54,850 nt of DNA from Oscillospiraceae bacterium (GTDB lineage: Bacteria; Bacillota; Clostridia; Oscillospirales; CAG-272). The notes beneath the pieces are model-generated. The model made no database searches and was not told the DNA's origin. It worked only from the letters and a program-made list of their open reading frames with translations. The stretch is from the NCBI GenBank assembly GCA_015064415.1, contig SVSG01000012.1:1-54850 (forward strand), read 5' to 3'. Positions 12,256-54,725 of this stretch are shown piece by piece (positions within the stretch are counted from its first letter, which is position 1; each line of letters starts with the position of its first letter). The position numbers and the translations under genes are program-made.

Positions 12256-14190
12256 TCAACGCTCTTGCTTTGCCCCTCGCGCCACGTAGCGCTTGGCCTG
12301 GGTGCTGAAAAGCTCGAAATATTTGCCCTTTTGCTCCATCAGCTCCAAATGGGAGCCGCATTCGATCACGCACCCGCCCTCCAGCACCACGATCTTGTCG
12401 GCCACGGTCGCGCTGGAAAGGCGGTGTGACACAAAGATCGTGGTCTTGTCCGAGCGCAATTTGTCGAATTGATTGAAGATCTCCTGCTCTGCCATCGGGT
12501 CCAGCGAGGCAGTCGGCTCGTCCAGGATCAGCACGTCAGAGTCCGCGTAAAACGCCCGCGCGATCGCAAGCTTTTGCCACTGACCGATGGAAAGCTCGGT
12601 ACCGTTCGGCTCGAAAATGCGCATCAGGGGCGTAGCGTACCCCTCCGGCATGGCCTCGATGTACGCCTTGGCGGCACTTTGCTCGGCCGCGTATTCCACG
12701 GCCCCGATGCCCGCCTCCTTGTGGATATCGCCAAAGCGGATATTCTCCTCCACGCTGACCGCGTATTTGCCGAAATCCTGAAAAATGATGCCGAAGATCT
12801 GATACAGGGCCTTGATATCATAGTCACGAATATCCTTGCCGTCAAGCAAGATCTGCCCCTCGGTGGGATCGTACAGTCTTGTCAGCAGCTTGATCAGGGT
12901 CGTTTTTCCTGCCCCGTTCAAGCCCACCAGCACGACCGTTTCCCCGCCGCGTATCGTGAGGTTGATGCCCCTCAGCACGTCACGGTCACTGCCGGGATAG
13001 CGGAAGCTGACGTTTTGGAACTCGATCGTATGCGCGACGTTGCGCGCAACGGCAAGCGGAGAGGAAAGACGCGGGCGTACTGTTTGCTCTTCGTTCATAA
13101 AGGCGATCAGGTTGTCGATAAACAGCGTGCCCTCATAGATCGTGGCGGAGGTGGAGATCAGCGTGCCCACGCAAGTGGCAACGGAGGCAATGGCTCCCGC
13201 ATAGAGCGTATAATCGCCGATCAGGATCTCACCCGTCCACACCTGCTGTGCGATCAGAATATAAAACACCAGATTGGTAACGCCCGACACGATGCCAAGC
13301 AGCACGTGCCACGCGTTTTCGCTCAGGATCAAGCGTCGCAGCCCCTTGTAATACTGCGAAAAAACGCGGAGATAGCGTGCGATAAAGGTGTCCGCCAGAT
13401 CGTACATGCGCACCTCCTTGATCTTGTCCTTATCCACCAGCAACCCCGAGTAATAATTCATCTGCCGACGCTCTTTAGAACGTCTTTTCATATACTGAAA
13501 ATTCTTTCTGCGATAAATAAAGGTGATGATGGCGGAAGGGACGGACAAAAGAAGGATCACAAGCGTCGCCCACGCAAGCCCCGGGGCGGCCAGCAAAATG
13601 ACCAGATAGCTGATAAACTCGATCACCGTGCTGATCACGCCGAAGGTGTCGGAAAGGATGCTCAGGGGGCGGTTGCCCGCCTCACGGTTGGCATTTTCCA
13701 TTTTTTCGTAAAACTGCGGATCATCAAAGGAGGCAAGATCCAGCTCCTTTGATTTTTGCATGATCTGTAGCTTCACCTGTTTGACGACCTTTTCGCCCGC
13801 GATGCGATTCAGGGCATGGCTGAGATTCTGCACGATGCGCACCAACACGCGGTAGACGAACAAAAAGATCAGAAGATAGAGCACCGTGGAGCCCCAGAAG
13901 GCCGAAAGCGGTTGCCCGCCCAGCGTGATGACGTGCTGTAATTCGTTCAGAATGCTTTTGGAGATCAAGGAGCCGATGATCGGCGTCACGCCCTTGAAAA
14001 GCGCCATGAAGCTGAGCAAGAACAAGATCCACGGCCCCGTTCGCCAGACCAGCCGCACAACGTAAGCAAATCTTTTGAAAAAGCCGCCAAGCAGTACCCG
14101 CAGATAGCGGAATACGTCGGGAAAATTCTTCGGGGGCGGAACACGATCATAGGTGTATTGCGGGCCGAAGCCCCTCATGCCTTGTGCCAT
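12256..14190 (-). CDS. ABC transporter, fused permease and ATPase (exporter type)
   Basis: A 644-residue half-transporter. Residues about 50-350 form the membrane domain with six hydrophobic segments (ILFLLSFMALF, VLYLLIFLFVY, VIEFISYLVILLAAPGLAWATLVILLL and others). The ATPase follows: Walker A GLNGAGKTT (about 424-432), Q-loop FGIIFQDF, signature LSIGQWQ (about 533), Walker B VLILDEP (about 552), D-loop SLD and H-loop VSHR (about 585). The signature has Ile where LSGGQ has Gly, as in other clostridial LS.GQWQ exporters. It is the last gene of the operon, 20 bases after a TetR-type regulator. A drug, peptide or lipid substrate is possible; the sequence does not say which. It would act as a homodimer, or heterodimer with a partner not in this window. 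Confidence 0.88.
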   Translation of the reverse strand: MAQGMRGFGPQYTYDRVPPPKNFPDVFRYLRVLLGGFFKRFAYVVRLVWRTGPWILFLLSFMALFKGVTPIIGSLISKSILNELQHVITLGGQPLSAFWGSTVLYLLIFLFVYRVLVRIVQNLSHALNRIAGEKVVKQVKLQIMQKSKELDLASFDDPQFYEKMENANREAGNRPLSILSDTFGVISTVIEFISYLVILLAAPGLAWATLVILLLSVPSAIITFIYRRKNFQYMKRRSKERRQMNYYSGLLVDKDKIKEVRMYDLADTFIARYLRVFSQYYKGLRRLILSENAWHVLLGIVSGVTNLVFYILIAQQVWTGEILIGDYTLYAGAIASVATCVGTLISTSATIYEGTLFIDNLIAFMNEEQTVRPRLSSPLAVARNVAHTIEFQNVSFRYPGSDRDVLRGINLTIRGGETVVLVGLNGAGKTTLIKLLTRLYDPTEGQILLDGKDIRDYDIKALYQIFGIIFQDFGKYAVSVEENIRFGDIHKEAGIGAVEYAAEQSAAKAYIEAMPEGYATPLMRIFEPNGTELSIGQWQKLAIARAFYADSDVLILDEPTASLDPMAEQEIFNQFDKLRSDKTTIFVSHRLSSATVADKIVVLEGGCVIECGSHLELMEQKGKYFELFSTQAKRYVARGAKQER

Positions 14191-47713: not shown

Positions 47714-47752
47714 AAAAAAGCATCCGTGTCGACGTGCGACGCGGATGCTTTT
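47714..47752 (-). terminator. Terminator of the vWA-kinase-phosphatase operon
   Basis: Stem GCATCCGCGTCG / CGACACGGATGC with one mismatch, followed on the minus strand by TTTTTTG; 12 bases after the last stop codon. Confidence 0.82.
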
Positions 47753-47764
47753 CGAGTTTTTTGA

Positions 47765-48448
47765 TCAGAAATCGTTGTTGAACCACTTCTCAAGCGAATC
47801 ATCGTTGGGATTGCTGGAGGAGGCGGAAAGCAGCTTGAAGAGCTTGTCAAACGCCTCGGTATTGCGGATCAGCTTGGGACGAAGCAGGGGGGAGAAACGG
47901 TTCAGGGAGTCATGGTTGAAGTTCACACCGATGCCTACGGGGAAGATCTTCAGCTCCTTGTTGGAGACCATTTCGGACACCTCGCGAGAGATGAAGGAGA
48001 TATCGTCGGTGGGATCGCCGTCGGTCATCACCATCAAAATCGGCTTATAGTGCTCGATATCGTTGTCGCGGTAGTACTGGCGACGCTCCTTGAGCAGCTC
48101 TACGGCCTTCGTCATGGCGGTGCCAAGGGGGGTGCCGCCGCTTGCCGCCAGATGGCGGAAGTGGATGCGGTCCACCGTGGTATAGCGGGAAACGATGCGC
48201 ACCACGTCACCCATGGTGATGATGCACAGGTCGCAGATCTTGGAGGCCTTGGGGTCATTTTGTACGTAAGCAAGAAACGCGTCGATGTTGCGGTTCAGCT
48301 CGTCGATTTTAGGCATTTTCGTGCCGTCGGGATAGCGCATGGAGCCACTGCAGTCAAGCACCAGGCAGATCGGCACCTTACGGGTGGAGGAGGCGGCAGG
48401 CGCACTGAAATCGCCAAAATCAAGATCGTCAAAAAGTCCGTTGTTCAT
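47765..48448 (-). CDS. TerY-like von Willebrand factor A domain protein
   Basis: A 227-residue cytosolic vWA protein. After a short acidic N-terminus (about 24 residues) the vWA domain shows a full metal-ion-dependent adhesion site: Asp32-x-Ser34-x-Ser36 in LVLDCSGSM, the Thr in GGTPLGTAM and the Asp in MVMTDGDPTDD. Length and motif spacing fit TerY of the tellurite-resistance associated stress systems. It is the last of six genes and follows the kinase by 21 bases. In the TerY-P triad a vWA protein is thought to be the phosphorylation target controlled by a kinase and a PP2C phosphatase; that role here is inferred from gene order. Confidence 0.85.
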   Translation of the reverse strand: MNNGLFDDLDFGDFSAPAASSTRKVPICLVLDCSGSMRYPDGTKMPKIDELNRNIDAFLAYVQNDPKASKICDLCIITMGDVVRIVSRYTTVDRIHFRHLAASGGTPLGTAMTKAVELLKERRQYYRDNDIEHYKPILMVMTDGDPTDDISFISREVSEMVSNKELKIFPVGIGVNFNHDSLNRFSPLLRPKLIRNTEAFDKLFKLLSASSSNPNDDSLEKWFNNDF

Positions 48449-48469
48449 ATCGGTTTCTCCTTTACTTCA

Positions 48470-49801
48470 TTAAGCATTTTTTTGTGCGGCGCGCTCTTTG
48501 GAAAGAATGTAAACGTCCAATTCACGCAACCATTCCGACAGGTAAGTGACCTTGCCCTCGGTAAAATAGTAATAGAAATAGCGGCGCATTGCGGGGCTGA
48601 GCGAGAACCACACCTTCATGTGGTAAGGCAGGGTCTTCGGATCCATGGTATTGGGATCAAACTCCGGCGGGTAGGTGAAATCACGGCTGCCGTCGCCATC
48701 GATCTCGGTATTATCCTTGCTGTAGAAGGGGCCCTTGAGCATCAGGATCTCAAAAATGATCTTGTTGATCGGGAAGTATTCCTCGCGCACACTGCGCAGA
48801 ATGCGTTTGAGCTGATCGCCCGTATAGATGCGCTCGGTATACTCCTTGTGGCACACGGTGCAGGCGTAATCCTCTACCTGGAAGCTGCCCGCATCGATGA
48901 TGTGCACGTCGCAGTTTTTGGCCACCAGAATGTTATCCAGCTTCATGTCACCAACCAGAATATCCCGCTCGTGCAGATAGTGCACGTTGCGCAGGAAATT
49001 GCGCACGATGAGGAAGCGGTCGATGAGGCGGAACTCGGAAAAGCCGTCGTCGCGCAGCTCGTCCACCGATTGCATGGCGGAAAGCTCCTTCATCAGATAG
49101 CCGACGAACTGATTGCGGTAGTACAGAATATCCAGCGGCCAGGAAATGAAGGGGTTATCACAGCCCATTTCCGCCATGGCCTGCAGCTTTTTAAAGTTTA
49201 CGTAAGAGATGTGCTTTTTGAAATACAGCTTGCAGAAAAGACCGTTATAGGTGCGATAGCACACGCCCTCGCCGCCCGAATATTCCTTCGATTTATCCAG
49301 CTTCAAATAGCCGTAGCGGGGCGAATACACGTAGGTCAGCTCCTTGATATCAAAGGCGTTGACGTATACGTCCTTTTCCAGATAAAAGGCCTTGCCGTTC
49401 TCATCCACGCCATGCGGGAAGGGGGCAAGCGCGCCCTCGTGGAAGCGCAGGAACTGCACTCCATCGCCCAGCGGCGCGAAGTTGTCGACCAGCTTTTGCT
49501 GCTGTGTCACGATCACCAGCTTTTCTGCGGCCATGGGCGTGAGCGCATCATAGCGGAATCCGTCGCCCGTATCGACCTGCAGCGTGTTGCCAAGCGCCGT
49601 GAACAGCTTGACGAAGTTTTCCAGCGCCAGCGCGTCGGACTCGCGTCCCAGATTGCGGTAATCCGCCACGCGCGCATGGATGGCGGTATCCAGAAGGAAG
49701 CAAAGCTCGGGCTCGCGCGCAAGCAGCTCCTCCACCATCAGATATGCATCTTCCTCCAAGAGAAAGGAGTCATCCATATAATAATATGCTTTTACTGACA
49801 T
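48470..49801 (-). CDS. Protein kinase-like protein (atypical, DAG instead of DFG)
   Basis: A 443-residue cytosolic protein. Residues about 170-400 form a kinase fold: a Gly-rich-like GGEGVCYRTY, Lys in LFCKLYFKK, a hinge after GYLMKEL, the catalytic loop HERDILVGDMKLDNILV with Asp285 and Asn290, and the metal-binding IIDAGSF (about Asp302), where DFG is replaced by DAG. The first about 165 residues are a separate alpha/beta domain of unknown fold. The C-terminal Zn-ribbon usual for TerY-P kinases is absent; only CTVCHKEY is seen in the activation segment. It overlaps the PP2C gene by 10 bases. Active kinase is likely because all key residues except Phe are present. Confidence 0.8.
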   Translation of the reverse strand: MSVKAYYYMDDSFLLEEDAYLMVEELLAREPELCFLLDTAIHARVADYRNLGRESDALALENFVKLFTALGNTLQVDTGDGFRYDALTPMAAEKLVIVTQQQKLVDNFAPLGDGVQFLRFHEGALAPFPHGVDENGKAFYLEKDVYVNAFDIKELTYVYSPRYGYLKLDKSKEYSGGEGVCYRTYNGLFCKLYFKKHISYVNFKKLQAMAEMGCDNPFISWPLDILYYRNQFVGYLMKELSAMQSVDELRDDGFSEFRLIDRFLIVRNFLRNVHYLHERDILVGDMKLDNILVAKNCDVHIIDAGSFQVEDYACTVCHKEYTERIYTGDQLKRILRSVREEYFPINKIIFEILMLKGPFYSKDNTEIDGDGSRDFTYPPEFDPNTMDPKTLPYHMKVWFSLSPAMRRYFYYYFTEGKVTYLSEWLRELDVYILSKERAAQKNA

Positions 49802-50745
49802 GATTCACCTCTCAGGAAAGAAAGATCGATGGGAGCGCCCGCGGGGGCGCCGGGATCCAGAAGGTAAGCGTAGCTGCTGACACGCTTGATCTGTCCCTCG
49901 CCCGTGATACCGGCAAACAGCTCCTCGCTGTACTCCGGCGACAGTGTGGTGTTATCCACGCTCTCCAGATACAGCAGATTCAAGCTCAGATCGTCGTAGC
50001 TCTGGCGCGCCACCGTGCGGGAAAGAAAGCGTTGCAGATTGGCGCGGTATTGCTCCACGGGCACGCCCGCGAAATTATCAAACAGCTTTTGCGTGTTGGG
50101 ATGCATGCCGCCCGCAGGGGTATACAGCACCTCCTCGGGGCCGTCCGACATCATCAGAATGCCCTCCAGCTGCGGACACTCGCCGTGCACAAGGCGCAAA
50201 TGATCCTTGGCGTTATGGTCCGTCACGAAGAAGGTGATGTTGGGGCCTCCGCCGTTTTCGGGGTGCGAGAGCACCTCCACGCGACGGGTAAGGCCGCGCT
50301 GGTAAAGCGCCGCCATCACGCCGTCACCCACGTGACCTGCGATGTAGCGCCCCGCCTTGATCGCGGCAAACTGCAGCGTACAGCCAAAATCGGGCAGTGC
50401 GCGTTCTGGCGTGACCTGCGTGCGCAGGGCGTCCAGCACGGTGTCCAGGATCTCTAAGCGCAGGTGCAAGAGCAGCGTTGCCGCCTTGGGGTCACCGCCC
50501 TCGATCTTCTCCATTTTGGCATAAAAATCATCGAATTTTTTCACAAGCAGCTCCGTCACCGCGCGGGTGGAATACTCCGATCCGATCTGCGAGAACTTGC
50601 GGCTGCCGCCGCCGTCGGAAAGCGCGATGGCATACACACCGTCAGCGAATGCCGAGGCCACGTTGTCCTGGCAAACCACGTTTGCCGTAATATGGTCCTT
50701 GCCTTGTACGGCCACGCCGCACTGCTTCCATTTTTGTAAAATCAC
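49792..50745 (-). CDS. PP2C family serine/threonine phosphatase
   Basis: A 317-residue metal-dependent phosphatase. Conserved acidic motifs: CQDNVASA near residue 25, AIALSDGGGSRKFSQIGS (first metal Asp), YIAGHVGDGVMAAL, MMSDGPEEVL, and SYDDLSLNLLYL (last metal Asp). The architecture is a plain catalytic domain without membrane anchor (PP2C_2 type). The start is placed at the GTG at 50745, which forms a GTGA overlap with the stop of the preceding vWA gene and has GGGTGG 8 bases upstream; a GTG at 50757 is less likely. It is expected to reverse the phosphorylation made by the kinase encoded next. Confidence 0.87.
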   Translation of the reverse strand: MILQKWKQCGVAVQGKDHITANVVCQDNVASAFADGVYAIALSDGGGSRKFSQIGSEYSTRAVTELLVKKFDDFYAKMEKIEGGDPKAATLLLHLRLEILDTVLDALRTQVTPERALPDFGCTLQFAAIKAGRYIAGHVGDGVMAALYQRGLTRRVEVLSHPENGGGPNITFFVTDHNAKDHLRLVHGECPQLEGILMMSDGPEEVLYTPAGGMHPNTQKLFDNFAGVPVEQYRANLQRFLSRTVARQSYDDLSLNLLYLESVDNTTLSPEYSEELFAGITGEGQIKRVSSYAYLLDPGAPAGAPIDLSFLRGESCQ

Positions 50746-51347
50746 AGCACAGCCCACCCTTCAAAGTCATTTTTGCGGAATTTCAAGCCGCCCTCCGCGC
50801 CCTCGGCGCGGCGATCAAGCATCCCCTCAAAGAAGGTAAAGAACTGATCGATCTGCCCCTCCTTGATGGTGATCATGTGCTTGACGCGGTCAAGCGACTG
50901 CATCCGCTCGGTATACAGCTTTCCGGAAAGCTTGAAGGGCAAATACATCAGTCGCCCGGACTGCTCCATCTCCTCCAGCTGTGCCACCACGGCAGAGGGC
51001 TCGTCAAAGGTGAACCCGTCCGACAGGATCACGATCCACGGGCGGAACACCTCCTCACCTGCGCTCTCCAGCTCGGAAACGCGCGAAAGCAAGCGATCGG
51101 CCGCCACCTGCGTGGCACGCCTCAGAAGTGGCATGCGGCCCGCGCGGACGGGCCTGATCTCGGCATCCGCAAAGCTCTTCACCACGTCGGGTGCAAAGGC
51201 GTCAAAGGTCAACAGCTCCCATTCCAGGAACGGATATTGCGCCCCCGAGGCGGCCAGACGGCGGAAGCCGTTCATCAGCGCGGCCAGCTTTTCCTTGGAG
51301 ACCGACGCGCTGTTATCCAGCACAAAGCTTACCAACTGTTTGCTCAT
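50742..51347 (-). CDS. Second von Willebrand factor A domain protein
   Basis: A 201-residue cytosolic vWA protein different from the TerY-like one. It starts almost directly with the metal site: Asp11-x-Ser13-x-Ser15 in FVLDNSASVS; the later Asp is in IVILSDGFTFD. A Thr in the middle MIDAS position (RRATQVAADRLL) is plausible. The last about 40 residues (GQIDQFFTFFEGMLDRRAEG, KFRKNDFEGWAVL) are amphipathic. It follows the 600-residue membrane protein by 2 bases and overlaps the PP2C start. It may form a complex with the membrane protein or be the second target of the kinase/phosphatase pair. Confidence 0.82.
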   Translation of the reverse strand: MSKQLVSFVLDNSASVSKEKLAALMNGFRRLAASGAQYPFLEWELLTFDAFAPDVVKSFADAEIRPVRAGRMPLLRRATQVAADRLLSRVSELESAGEEVFRPWIVILSDGFTFDEPSAVVAQLEEMEQSGRLMYLPFKLSGKLYTERMQSLDRVKHMITIKEGQIDQFFTFFEGMLDRRAEGAEGGLKFRKNDFEGWAVL

Positions 51348-51349
51348 AC

Positions 51350-53152
51350 TCAGTCTCCTTTCTCACAGAATGCGCGCACGCGGTCCAGCGCCTGGCGCGT
51401 GCTTTCGGTACGGTACATCAAGGGCCGCAGGTGTACGCGGTCCTTTTCCAGCAGGTGGCAAAGCAGCTGCCGGCCAAACTCTGCCATTTCCTCTTTGTTT
51501 GCGGCGCCGGCGCACGGAAGTGCCGCGGGAACGCTTACAAACTCCTGCAGAACGGTGGCACGGACTGCCTCATCCGCATGGCACAGCATCCAACCGCCCA
51601 CCAGCATACGAAGCGCGGCGATCTCACCAAAGCTGAGGGTGAAGCGGTACTCGCCAAGAACGGCGGCAAGGCGCTCGGGAGACCAGATCGCGGCATCCGC
51701 CGGGGGATTGACGATATATTGGAGCAACACGCGCGTGGCAGAGTCGCAAAGCGGCTTCCACGTGCGCGCAACGCGCGTATAGAGGATGCCCAGCTCGCGG
51801 CGCGCATCCATATACGCCTCGTTTCTCACGATCTCCACGATCCGCGCTTCCTCCTCTTCGCCAAGGTCCAGCTCGGTACGGCGATCGTACAGCATCAGTG
51901 CAATGTTCTCAAAAATACTGCCCGTATTGCCCACGGCATACTCGTTGCCAAGGATCAGGGCAAAGGCCTGCGTTTGCTTGGCCGCCTCGTTCAGCTCGCC
52001 ACCGCCCACGCGGGATTTTTCCGCCTTCAGTGCCTCGTCCAGCACGTCGGCGTGTGCGGCGTCCATCTGAGAAAGCAACAGATAAGACATTTTTACGCGG
52101 TTTGCGGCAAGCAGATCGGCAAGAATAACGGTCAGCTGGCGGTTGTTGTAAGCCGCCACCATGCCGGGCGCAAACGCCCATTCCCAGTTTTCGGGGATCA
52201 TGACCTCTCGCACCATCACGGTGGGGATCTGCCGGTTCTCGTACAATACGCTTGCCAGCGCGGAACGGTCCTTGAATACAGCCGCCGCACGCATAAAGCG
52301 CGTCAGCGTTTCGCTGTTGACCTTGACGCCGATGCCGTGCAGCAGCGTCATGATGTTGCCCAGTGCCACAGCGCCCGCCACGGCCCCCGACTCCACCTGC
52401 TGAATGACCATGCCGGCCACCTGCGTGCCGTAGGAGCTCTTGATATCGGTCAAAAGATCGTCCACGGTGACGTCGTCAAAGTCGCGCAACGGCACGACCT
52501 TCAGCTCCGGCTGCTCCTCGTTTTGCAGGAAAAGCGCCAGCGCATTGTCAAAATCATGCTCGATCTGCAAAGAGAAGCGGTCGATCTCCTCCATGTACTC
52601 CTGCACCATCTTGCCGATGGGGGCAAAAAGGTCGGAAAGGAACTGCGCAGAGATCGGATGGGTCAGATTTTTGTTGAAGGAGCTCAGCGTGCCGCTCAGC
52701 TGACCATGCAGCTCCTTGACACGCTTGCGGCAGACCTCCATGTTGTAAAGCGTTTGCTCCTTGTTGCTCAGAAGGTCGGCCACCTGCACGTAGTAGGCGT
52801 CGAAAATACGAATATCGCGCACGTATTTGCGGCGGGAAAGCGAGAAGTAGACCACGCCGCCGTTCACGGCAGCGAGCAACAGCATCGGGACCGCATAAAT
52901 GCGCAAAACGGGGTTGAACAGCACGACCAGCGTCAACACCAGAAGGATCGCAGCCAGCGCCCCCGCCACCACCGCAACGGGAATGTCGCGCGTAATGTAG
53001 AACAGATAATTCTTTTCGCGGTAATTGGCCAATTTGATCTGCTTGCGGCAAAGCAGGCGGTACTCCGCGCGCAACGCGAAGAACAGCACCGCGCCGCCGG
53101 CAAGCGTCAGTGCGATGAGCAAAAACGGCATCATAAATTCAAAGCTTGTCAT
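51350..53152 (-). CDS. Membrane protein with large cytosolic domain, unknown family
   Basis: A 600-residue protein with three N-terminal hydrophobic segments (about 5-27, 57-78 and 84-105) followed by about 490 residues that are mostly helical and probably cytosolic. This domain includes a coiled-coil-like stretch (about 130-210, NKEQTLYNMEVCRKRVKELHGQL), a Gly/Ala-rich stretch (GAVAGAVALGNIMTLLHGIG) and a charged C-terminus. No domain recognised and no enzyme motif seen. It overlaps the upstream surface-domain gene by 4 bases (ATGA), and the second vWA gene follows at once. It is placed to link an extracellular sensor to the cytosolic vWA/kinase/phosphatase proteins. Confidence 0.8.
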   Translation of the reverse strand: MTSFEFMMPFLLIALTLAGGAVLFFALRAEYRLLCRKQIKLANYREKNYLFYITRDIPVAVVAGALAAILLVLTLVVLFNPVLRIYAVPMLLLAAVNGGVVYFSLSRRKYVRDIRIFDAYYVQVADLLSNKEQTLYNMEVCRKRVKELHGQLSGTLSSFNKNLTHPISAQFLSDLFAPIGKMVQEYMEEIDRFSLQIEHDFDNALALFLQNEEQPELKVVPLRDFDDVTVDDLLTDIKSSYGTQVAGMVIQQVESGAVAGAVALGNIMTLLHGIGVKVNSETLTRFMRAAAVFKDRSALASVLYENRQIPTVMVREVMIPENWEWAFAPGMVAAYNNRQLTVILADLLAANRVKMSYLLLSQMDAAHADVLDEALKAEKSRVGGGELNEAAKQTQAFALILGNEYAVGNTGSIFENIALMLYDRRTELDLGEEEEARIVEIVRNEAYMDARRELGILYTRVARTWKPLCDSATRVLLQYIVNPPADAAIWSPERLAAVLGEYRFTLSFGEIAALRMLVGGWMLCHADEAVRATVLQEFVSVPAALPCAGAANKEEMAEFGRQLLCHLLEKDRVHLRPLMYRTESTRQALDRVRAFCEKGD

Positions 53153-54339
53153 ACGATCCTCCTTCTTTGCAGGAAGAAGAAGACCGCCGCCGCGATCAAC
53201 AGCACTGCAACAATGATAAAGAATATGACGTAAGTATTGTGGGGATTGTCAAATCGCAGCGTCAGCGTGGTGTACGTGGTGCCCTCGTCCGCCTCGGACA
53301 CGCGCAAGAGGAAGGCGTTTTCGACCACGTTGCCGTTCGCGTCCTTCACTACGAACTCGTGCTCGCCGCTCTTTTCCAAGCGGTAGTCGCCTTCGATCTT
53401 TTCACCGTCGACGTAAAAATCCGCATCCCAAACGGAAAGACGAAGCGACACGGGCTCGTCAACCGTGGTTTTCGGCAGAACCACAACAACCTGCAGATTC
53501 AGAGTCTGTGCATCAGGCAAAGCGCCCATTGCGGTGATCGGCGTGCCGTTCAGCGCAGCCGTCAGCGTGTGCTGACCAACAGCGGTCACGCGGTGTACGC
53601 CGGGGCCCAGATTCTTGTCGCCGTCCAGAATAACGTCGGGCTGCTCGGGGAACTCGCCGACGGTAAGCTCCAGCGTGTGCAGGCCGCTTTCGGTGTCGTA
53701 CACCTTTTGCGCCGTGCAGGCACTGACGTAGAACGTGAGACTGTATACCTGATTGTTGCTGACCATCTTCAGCGTGTGGCGGCCCATCTGTGTGATCGTG
53801 GTGCCGGACTGGAAGTTTTTGTCATAGCTCGCCATGCCCTCGTCCAGCGCCATGCTGTCCACGTTGAGGCACTCGACCACGGGATAATAGGTGCAGATCA
53901 GATCCTGGAATTTGGCAAGATCGTTGTCAAAGCCGACCGTGGTCTCGCCCAGCTTGATCACGGGGAGCACGATCAGAGTGCCAAGCCAGTACTCGCCCGT
54001 CTCCTTGTGGATCACGGTGATGTCGTACTTGCCCGCCTTTTCCAGATGGATGCTGACACCCTCCTGCAGCACGCCGTTCACCTTAAGATTTGCCTCGTCC
54101 GCCTGCCAGGTAACGGTGGCGGCACGTTGCAGATAGGTCTTGGGCTGGCTGGACGCCCCTGCGGCCGCCAGTGAGACCAGTACGCTTTCCGGTACGTCGT
54201 TTTCATCCACGGGGTCATAGCGGTAGCTGACCGTCGCCCACATGGTGCTCTCCTGCGCCGGTGCCGCAGCCGCAGGAAGGATCGCCGCAAGCGACAGCAG
54301 TACGCAAAGCGACATCCAAAGGCAGATGATTTTTTTCAT
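53149..54339 (-). CDS. Secreted single-pass membrane protein with beta-sandwich ectodomain
   Basis: A 396-residue protein, first gene of the operon. Signal peptide (KKIICLWMSLCVLLSLAAIL, cleavage near AAAAP), then about 330 residues that look like several Ig/beta-sandwich modules, each containing a K.G.Y/H-type strand (EKAGKYDITVI, MGRHTLKMV, VGQHTLTAAL, KSGEHEFVVKD). A C-terminal transmembrane helix (about 368-390, YVIFFIIVAVLLIAAAVFFF) ends in QRRRIV inside the cell. It would sit in the cytoplasmic membrane with its body outside and could be the sensor or a wall-binding anchor of the operon. GGGGGA precedes the ATG. Ligand unknown. Confidence 0.82.
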   Translation of the reverse strand: MKKIICLWMSLCVLLSLAAILPAAAAPAQESTMWATVSYRYDPVDENDVPESVLVSLAAAGASSQPKTYLQRAATVTWQADEANLKVNGVLQEGVSIHLEKAGKYDITVIHKETGEYWLGTLIVLPVIKLGETTVGFDNDLAKFQDLICTYYPVVECLNVDSMALDEGMASYDKNFQSGTTITQMGRHTLKMVSNNQVYSLTFYVSACTAQKVYDTESGLHTLELTVGEFPEQPDVILDGDKNLGPGVHRVTAVGQHTLTAALNGTPITAMGALPDAQTLNLQVVVVLPKTTVDEPVSLRLSVWDADFYVDGEKIEGDYRLEKSGEHEFVVKDANGNVVENAFLLRVSEADEGTTYTTLTLRFDNPHNTYVIFFIIVAVLLIAAAVFFFLQRRRIV

Positions 54340-54407: not shown

Positions 54408-54436
54408 ATTTTATCATATTTTTTAAAATAGGTCAA
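54408..54436 (-). promoter_or_regulatory. Promoter of the six-gene signalling operon
   Basis: TTGACC (54431-54436), 17-base spacer ending TGA, TAAAAT (54408-54413) on the minus strand; predicted start about 60 bases before the first ATG. From 54437 to 54602 I see no gene; there are only A/T-runs near 54558-54600. Confidence 0.75.
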
Positions 54437-54649: not shown

Positions 54650-54725
54650 CTGGGTGTGGCGCAGCTGGTAGCGCGCTACCTTGGGGTGGTAGAGGCCGCA
54701 AGTTCAAGTCTTGTCACTCAGACCA
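54650..54725 (+). tRNA. tRNA-Pro(GGG)
   Basis: A 76-base cloverleaf with encoded CCA. Acceptor CTGGGTG pairs with CACTCAG (one G-U), D arm GCGC-loop-GCGC, anticodon arm CTACC-TTGGGGT-GGTAG giving anticodon GGG, T arm GCAAG-TTCAAGT-CTTGT. It reads CCC and CCU proline codons. Confidence 0.93.

Follow-up and report, generated by a model that had tools for sequence, protein, structure and literature searches.

Switches of the TerY-P type, built around a vWA protein, a PP2C phosphatase and a protein kinase, raise the question of where their signal comes from and what the vWA protein does with it; in the literature passages available to us, both the signal input and the vWA role are left as hypothesis. 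A six-gene operon (genes A to F) bears on this question. It lies in a stretch of 54,850 nucleotides, called the window in its full length (contig SVSG01000012.1 of the Oscillospiraceae bacterium assembly GCA_015064415.1; 2.25 Mb in 43 contigs, 81% complete), and sets two putative membrane proteins (A and B) and a second, vWA-like protein (C) beside a phosphatase (D), a kinase (E) and a TerY-like vWA protein (F). We read it, with a probability of about 0.5, as a receptor-coupled derivative of the TerY-P-like vWA-PP2C-kinase switch. With input likely to come through a surface protein and the vWA features divided over separate proteins, each role would become testable by single-gene removal.

Profile searches with each of the six proteins identified D, E and F, matched C weakly and gave nothing convincing for A and B. 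D matched PP2C_2 (Pfam, E value = 1.1e-31), and its motifs SDGGG, GHVGDG, SDG and DDL, which we take to be those of the PP2C metal site, were invariant in all six loci where the operon was found. E matched Pkinase (E value = 1.3e-6; 28.5 bits, under the curated cut-off of 31.7), and the presumably catalytic residues K191, D285/K287/N290 and D303xG305 were likewise invariant in 6/6 loci. F matched VWA (E value = 1.5e-10). Among the PADLOC models, F matched TerY (1.3e-4) and E several kinase models (best 6.6e-6), both weakly, while A to D matched none. Pfam, PADLOC and motifs together support the TerY-P-like triad that had been proposed when the window was first read from its letters alone (the sequence-only reading).

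The open reading frame (ORF) list confirmed the six minus-strand genes and their order (Table 1), with intergenic distances in the window of −4 (A/B), +2 (B/C), −4 (C/D), −10 (D/E) and +21 (E/F). The start of D was moved from the ORF-list position, 50757, to a GTG at 50745, because 5/5 homologs have Met at residue 5 of the longer reading and because the revised start gives a C/D overlap of 4 bases in 6/6 loci. A and B overlap by 4 bases in all five loci that have both genes. The sequence-only reading had pointed to overlaps of 4 and 10 bases; both are present in the window, but the 10-base D/E overlap is peculiar to it, with a 1-base gap in the other five loci. It had also placed the genes under one promoter, and a promoter-like site does precede A; this is weak evidence, since the number of such sites in the region (6) is near that expected by chance (4.3). 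The inverted repeat 3′ of gene F was scored by the scan as terminator-like on the plus strand only; on the minus strand its stem leads into six T, a feature that was not scored as a terminator.

Next, we looked into how the two vWA proteins differ (24 sequences aligned for a tree, 29 checked for motifs). The sole Pfam match of C, to VWA_CoxE (E value = 0.012), is weak, and we call C vWA-like because of its alignment and because its profile matches canonical vWAs of other triads (for example, at 3.2e-17). F has a complete metal ion-dependent adhesion site (MIDAS; DxSxS...T...D) in 6/6 loci, together with a conserved C-terminal tail, DDSLEKWFN(ND/ES)F. The MIDAS of C is complete in 0/6 loci, with the middle Thr absent in all six, DxSxS lost in two and the last Asp lost in one. 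C ends in a tryptophan-containing tail, FEGWAVL (W-tail), in 6/6 loci, and a tail of this type was found in 0/6 F sequences. In eight related triads from elsewhere (L039, L092, L093 and L103 to L107), 10/10 vWA genes carried DxSxS, TDG and a Trp tail (GWAEL and similar, with DWGEL in one and AWGEI in L093), and 9/10 kept the middle Thr, which is Ser in L107. Judged by these motifs, the pattern of C and F is what one would expect had two functions been divided between two copies.

The proposed input side consists of A and B. A is predicted to have a signal peptide, an extracellular part of about 335 residues, a C-terminal transmembrane (TM) helix and, behind it, a short cytosolic tail rich in Arg (RRRIV); hydropathy placed hydrophobic segments at both termini in 5/5 sequences. 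B has three predicted N-terminal TM helices (at about residues 5-28, 57-80 and 84-106), followed by a predicted cytosolic part of about 490 residues; positive charges lie on the side taken to be cytosolic (from hydropathy, with boundaries partly set by eye). These predicted topologies agree with what had been proposed, a secreted one-pass A and a membrane protein B with a large cytosolic part.

For A, no convincing match was found in Pfam, NCBIfam, PADLOC, PHROGs or PDB, and the best PDB match, an IgA Fc receptor (E value = 0.18), was rejected. The A profile matched 3/146 genomes of the family, namely its own and two in which the match covered the signal peptide only (positions 1-38) and was also rejected. 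B had no convincing family or PDB match. Its Pfam matches (DUF4131, AF1548-like_C and divDNApol; E values of 0.07-0.26), a match to AmaP (0.47) and its PDB matches (≥0.4) were rejected as chance. The B profile matched 2/291 genomes of the class, its own and G244, the latter over 46 positions (1.4e-4), which we likewise attribute to chance. A peptide-pattern search of viral contigs found no relative of B, E or F.

B was present in 6 of the 79 relatives searched and in 6 of the 21 genomes of the genus, and E was present in the same six, so that the two genes were jointly present or jointly absent in 21/21 genus genomes. The other carriers are five metagenome-assembled genomes (MAGs) named Clostridia bacterium or Oscillospiraceae bacterium, three of them from deer cecum. 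Many genus genomes are incomplete; 6/21 is therefore a lower bound, and the absences are uncertain. The sequence-only reading had suggested examining the conservation of the six-gene order in Clostridia: the genes do occur together in other genomes, in identical order in all six carriers (A is not visible in G008, whose contig starts inside B), but in one genus only.

If a variable receptor is joined to a constant switch, identity should rise from outside to inside. Mean pairwise identity (5 sequences for A, 5 or 6 for the other parts) was 0.39 for the A ectodomain, 0.50 for the TM part of B, 0.56 for B residues 241-600, 0.57 for the E N-terminal domain, 0.64 for both B residues 108-240 and C, 0.77 for D, 0.83 for the E kinase domain and 0.88 for F. 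Conservation thus broadly falls from the cytosolic core outwards, and within E the N-terminal domain evolves faster than the kinase domain.

Profiles of the core proteins found triads outside the genus. The E profile matched 11/291 class genomes at 1e-8 and the D profile 9/291, own genome included in each; seven of the other matching genomes are from genus g112, in which kinase, vWA and PP2C genes lie together, with other genes between them in G273. A wider kinase profile matched 6/398 genomes of the phylum at 1e-20, again including its own, and the five others (L103 to L107) all have kinase, vWA and PP2C genes, the L106 contig cutting off the kinase N-terminus. A family search matched 3/246 genomes at 1e-6: the window's own, G475, where a kinase alone was recognised on a 13-kb contig, and G032, from another genus of the family, with four kinase-like, two vWA and two PP2C-like genes (L060, 3363-13993). 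A Lysinibacillus plasmid (L093), a Fusobacterium record and a Sinorhizobium plasmid carry further triads. All six profiles were run on 22 related loci outside the genus, of which 19 matched vWA, PP2C and kinase alike; the exceptions were L048 (nothing matched; its kinase had been found earlier by the E profile), L059 (kinase only) and L109 (no kinase). A or B matched in 0/22. Among the genomes searched, A and B thus occur in one genus only and only with the triad.

The related kinases differ from E at both ends. At its N-terminus the L039 kinase matches PIN_4, reaching the curated cut-off (21.9 bits), and it has zf_Tbcl after the kinase domain; in the Lysinibacillus kinase PIN_4 scores 18.1 bits, under the cut-off, and zf_Tbcl is present as well. 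The kinases of L092, L103 to L105 and L107 show a PIN-like N-terminal pattern by eye. The G475 kinase has zf_Tbcl under the cut-off and no PIN among its matches listed, and the four g112 kinases scanned had no PIN match. From their domains, the PIN-bearing triad kinases are possibly kinase-controlled ribonucleases. The literature passages found on TerY with PIN domains, or on PIN, PP2C, vWA and kinase, do not describe such a triad, and a broad literature search gave only unrelated papers among the matches listed.

In E, residues 1-152 (49346-49801) form an N-terminal domain, the remainder being the kinase domain, and occupy the place of the PIN domain in the related kinases (alignment A9). D10 and T99 align with their invariant D and T, while the other acidic residues do not. 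Profile comparison gave no significant support for PIN homology of the E N-terminus (score = 15.0, probability = 0.4%, reversed control = 10.7), and the domain had no PDB match. We infer a docking domain, possibly a decayed PIN. At the other end, Pfam found no C-terminal zinc ribbon or OB-fold in E, and alignment A9 shows nothing after the kinase domain; E ends at residue 443, about where its profile's matches end in the related kinases (positions 415-430 of 441 in 9/10 others).

How does the operon compare with described systems? TerY-P consists of a vWA protein, a PP2C phosphatase and a kinase with a C-terminal zinc ribbon, and in the passages seen of PMC11090510 versions with an OB-fold are said to have been shown to act as stand-alone defence systems, while TerY-P-like modules are also described as CoCoNuT partners. 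The operon shares with TerY-P the three proteins in one operon, with kinase and TerY matches that are weak against curated libraries, and a vWA with complete MIDAS, which is F and not C. It differs in its second, MIDAS-less vWA, in the two membrane proteins and in its kinase. The core is a derivative of the TerY-P triad and not strict TerY-P, because E has neither a zinc ribbon nor an OB-fold. The triads of L039, L092, L093, L103 to L105 and L107, from other Bacillota and a Fusobacterium, rank among the top matches of the kinase, vWA and PP2C profiles beyond the genus; unlike the operon, they have a PIN or PIN-like stretch at the kinase N-terminus, metal site and W-tail together on the vWA, and zf_Tbcl in both kinases scanned with Pfam (L039 and L093), and they lack A and B.

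Three features stressed by the sequence-only reading have precedents. The second vWA is present, but Type III-A CoCoNuTs are described as having a pair of vWAs, of which the internal one is slightly shorter and lacks the middle MIDAS Thr; they resemble C and F in this and have an ATPase gene between the vWA genes, which the operon lacks, and the passages of PMC11090510 do not mention a partition of W-tail and MIDAS. As for the missing Ter genes, TerD (PF02342) was found in 0/14 genomes with the operon or related triads (TerB and TerC were not searched) and in 2/14 control genomes, B. subtilis among them; such absence is not unusual, because of the stand-alone TerY-P-like systems, the CoCoNuT partners and the further TerD-less triads. 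The membrane-linked set was named the best candidate for an undescribed phospho-switch, and A and B indeed fit no described system, but the link has a partial precedent in actinobacterial GAP1-N2 neighbourhoods, which according to the passages of PMC7159879 have a kinase, a PP2C and a stand-alone vWA, as here, and in which the kinase is sometimes fused to TM helices, so that the link lies inside the kinase and not in a separate A-B pair. The triad, Ter-gene-free triads and a duplicated vWA are thus already known. Among the material searched, the following look new: the A-B pair confined to a genus and always found with the triad, the split of metal site (F) and tryptophan tail (C) between vWAs, and the fall in conservation from core to outside together with the conserved 4-base overlaps A/B and C/D.

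We propose that A would read a signal at the cell surface and, because it has almost no cytosolic tail, would hand it on laterally, within the membrane, to B through its TM helices. The cytosolic part of B may hold C, which would act as a scaffold without a metal site, its conserved Trp-containing tail holding the kinase or the phosphatase. At the membrane, the signal would tip the balance between kinase E and phosphatase D, and F, with its intact metal site and the slowest evolution of the set, would be the output, a binder under phospho-control that relays the signal to some target not encoded in the operon. All of these protein-protein contacts, the signal, the direction of the switch and the target of F are conjectural, and that A and B feed the kinase is a well-motivated guess. 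A further-reaching version is tentative, and we would sooner expect it to fail than to hold: the operon would be a true transmembrane TerY-P-like receptor, with A-B as a dedicated two-protein surface receptor, the vWA function divided between F, an output that binds metal, and C, a scaffold that binds none and retains just the tryptophan docking tail, and a kinase that exchanged its PIN nuclease domain for a receptor-docking domain. If this were true, a self-contained, nuclease-bearing switch would have been turned into an environmental signalling pathway.

Several points weigh against the receptor-coupled reading. Sensing by A and B and their contact with the triad are conjectural, and the operon has no output gene. 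All seven vWAs of g112 have the metal site and no W-tail, so the W-tail is not required by every triad. C is not a proven duplicate of F: the two do not group on the tree, but C sits on a very long branch, its placement unsure. The PIN origin of the E N-terminus is attractive by eye, and the profile comparison does not bear it out. The operon was seen in only 6/21 genus genomes, several of them incomplete MAGs, and relaxed constraint could also account for the low identity of A.

The alternative that survives best, although we think it unlikely, is antiphage defence, in which A and B would detect phage at the surface and the triad would trigger growth arrest, like stand-alone TerY-P. TerY-P is reported to be active against T7-like phages in the passages of PMC7699616 and to act in defence in those of PMC11090510; the plasmid setting of the L093 triad, beside insertion sequence (IS) elements and mobQ, the N6 DNA methylase gene beside the L039 triad, the patchy spread within the genus and the fast-evolving A ectodomain all fit such a role. 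On the other side stand the weak PADLOC matches, the GC content and third-position GC (GC3) of the operon, which are near those of neighbouring genes, the housekeeping-like surroundings of the g112 triads and an operon in which no effector nuclease was recognised. Neighbour families looked up in the window, L007, L008 and L010 (NAD-dependent epimerase, DUF4838, pyridine-nucleotide oxidoreductase, beta-lactamase fold, GH28, GH39 and a recombinase) are not defence genes either.

That same ordinary base composition would suit a regulator of envelope or growth state, comparable in principle to PrkC/Stp and to PpkA/PppA of the type VI secretion system, in which A and B would sense the cell wall or nutrient state and E and D would set the phosphorylation of a housekeeping target through F. 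The intact motifs of D and E in 6/6 loci and the tRNA-Pro(GGG) upstream in 4/6, consistent with a settled place, point the same way. We consider this regulator rather improbable, as it was not found in most of the genus, Pfam detected neither a PASTA nor an FHA domain in any of the six proteins, and no target is known. It is very unlikely that the surface proteins A and B are just transcribed together with the triad and have no functional tie to it, a view favoured by the conjectural nature of the link and the lack of a shared domain, since their stop-start overlap is kept in 5/5 loci, gene order is kept despite the divergence of B to 47-50% identity to the window sequence, and B and E come and go together across the genus.

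Table 1. Features of the operon and of the loci compared with it
Feature	Positions	Strand	Remarks
Gene A	53149-54339	-	396 aa; start 54339 picked to agree with homologs
Gene B	51350-53152	-	600 aa; from ORF list
Gene C	50742-51347	-	201 aa; vWA-like
Gene D	49792-50745	-	317 aa with revised start; PP2C phosphatase
Gene E	48470-49801	-	443 aa; protein kinase
Gene F	47765-48448	-	227 aa; TerY-like vWA
Promoter-like site	54408-54436	-	TTGACC-17-TAAAAT, TG before −10; 10/12 consensus positions
Inverted repeat 3′ of gene F	47716-47752		16 pairs; possible terminator; repeat scan
tRNA-Pro(GGG)	window 54650-54725; L008 19324-19399; L009 14830-14905; L010 7342-7417		divergently upstream of gene A
PIN or PIN-like kinases	L039 6533-8899; L092 7299-9605; L093 6065-8644; L103 6801-8435, 8803-11328		beside vWA, PP2C
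PIN or PIN-like kinases, further	L104 7786-10296; L105 1282-3816; L107 8361-10124		beside vWA, PP2C

The tRNA-Pro(GGG) gene was not found upstream of A in L007 or in the short locus L011; in G007 a tRNA-Pro lies on a different contig, and the contig with the operon has part of a serine recombinase at its start. We compared the tRNA-Pro regions of ten genomes without the operon (L081 to L089 and L091) and found no clean empty site of a mobile island among them; att sites were not sought. Genes resembling ackA or tmcAL by eye lie 5′ of the tRNA in 8/10 of these regions, the exceptions being L083 and L084. L083 has a close galE relative (4.5e-186) 3′ of its tRNA-Pro, and not 5′ of it as in the window.

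The surroundings of the related triads are varied. The g112 triads (L040 to L046) are followed by an uncharacterised protein of 214-370 residues that starts like KKYEILPGVE.PD, and they lie among genes that resemble housekeeping genes by eye. The methylase gene adjoining the L039 triad (12294-13416; N6_Mtase, 1.2e-78) is accompanied by a gene that looks like a specificity subunit by eye. Two unverified human-gut "phage" scaffolds, which may be bacterial DNA, have TerY-like vWA and PP2C-like genes (L108, 5389-8292; L109, 7980-9391), with a kinase-like gene in L108 only. On the Sinorhizobium meliloti plasmid, the triad (L094, 1357-7857) follows genes annotated hxsB, hxsC and hxsA, of the His-Xaa-Ser system.

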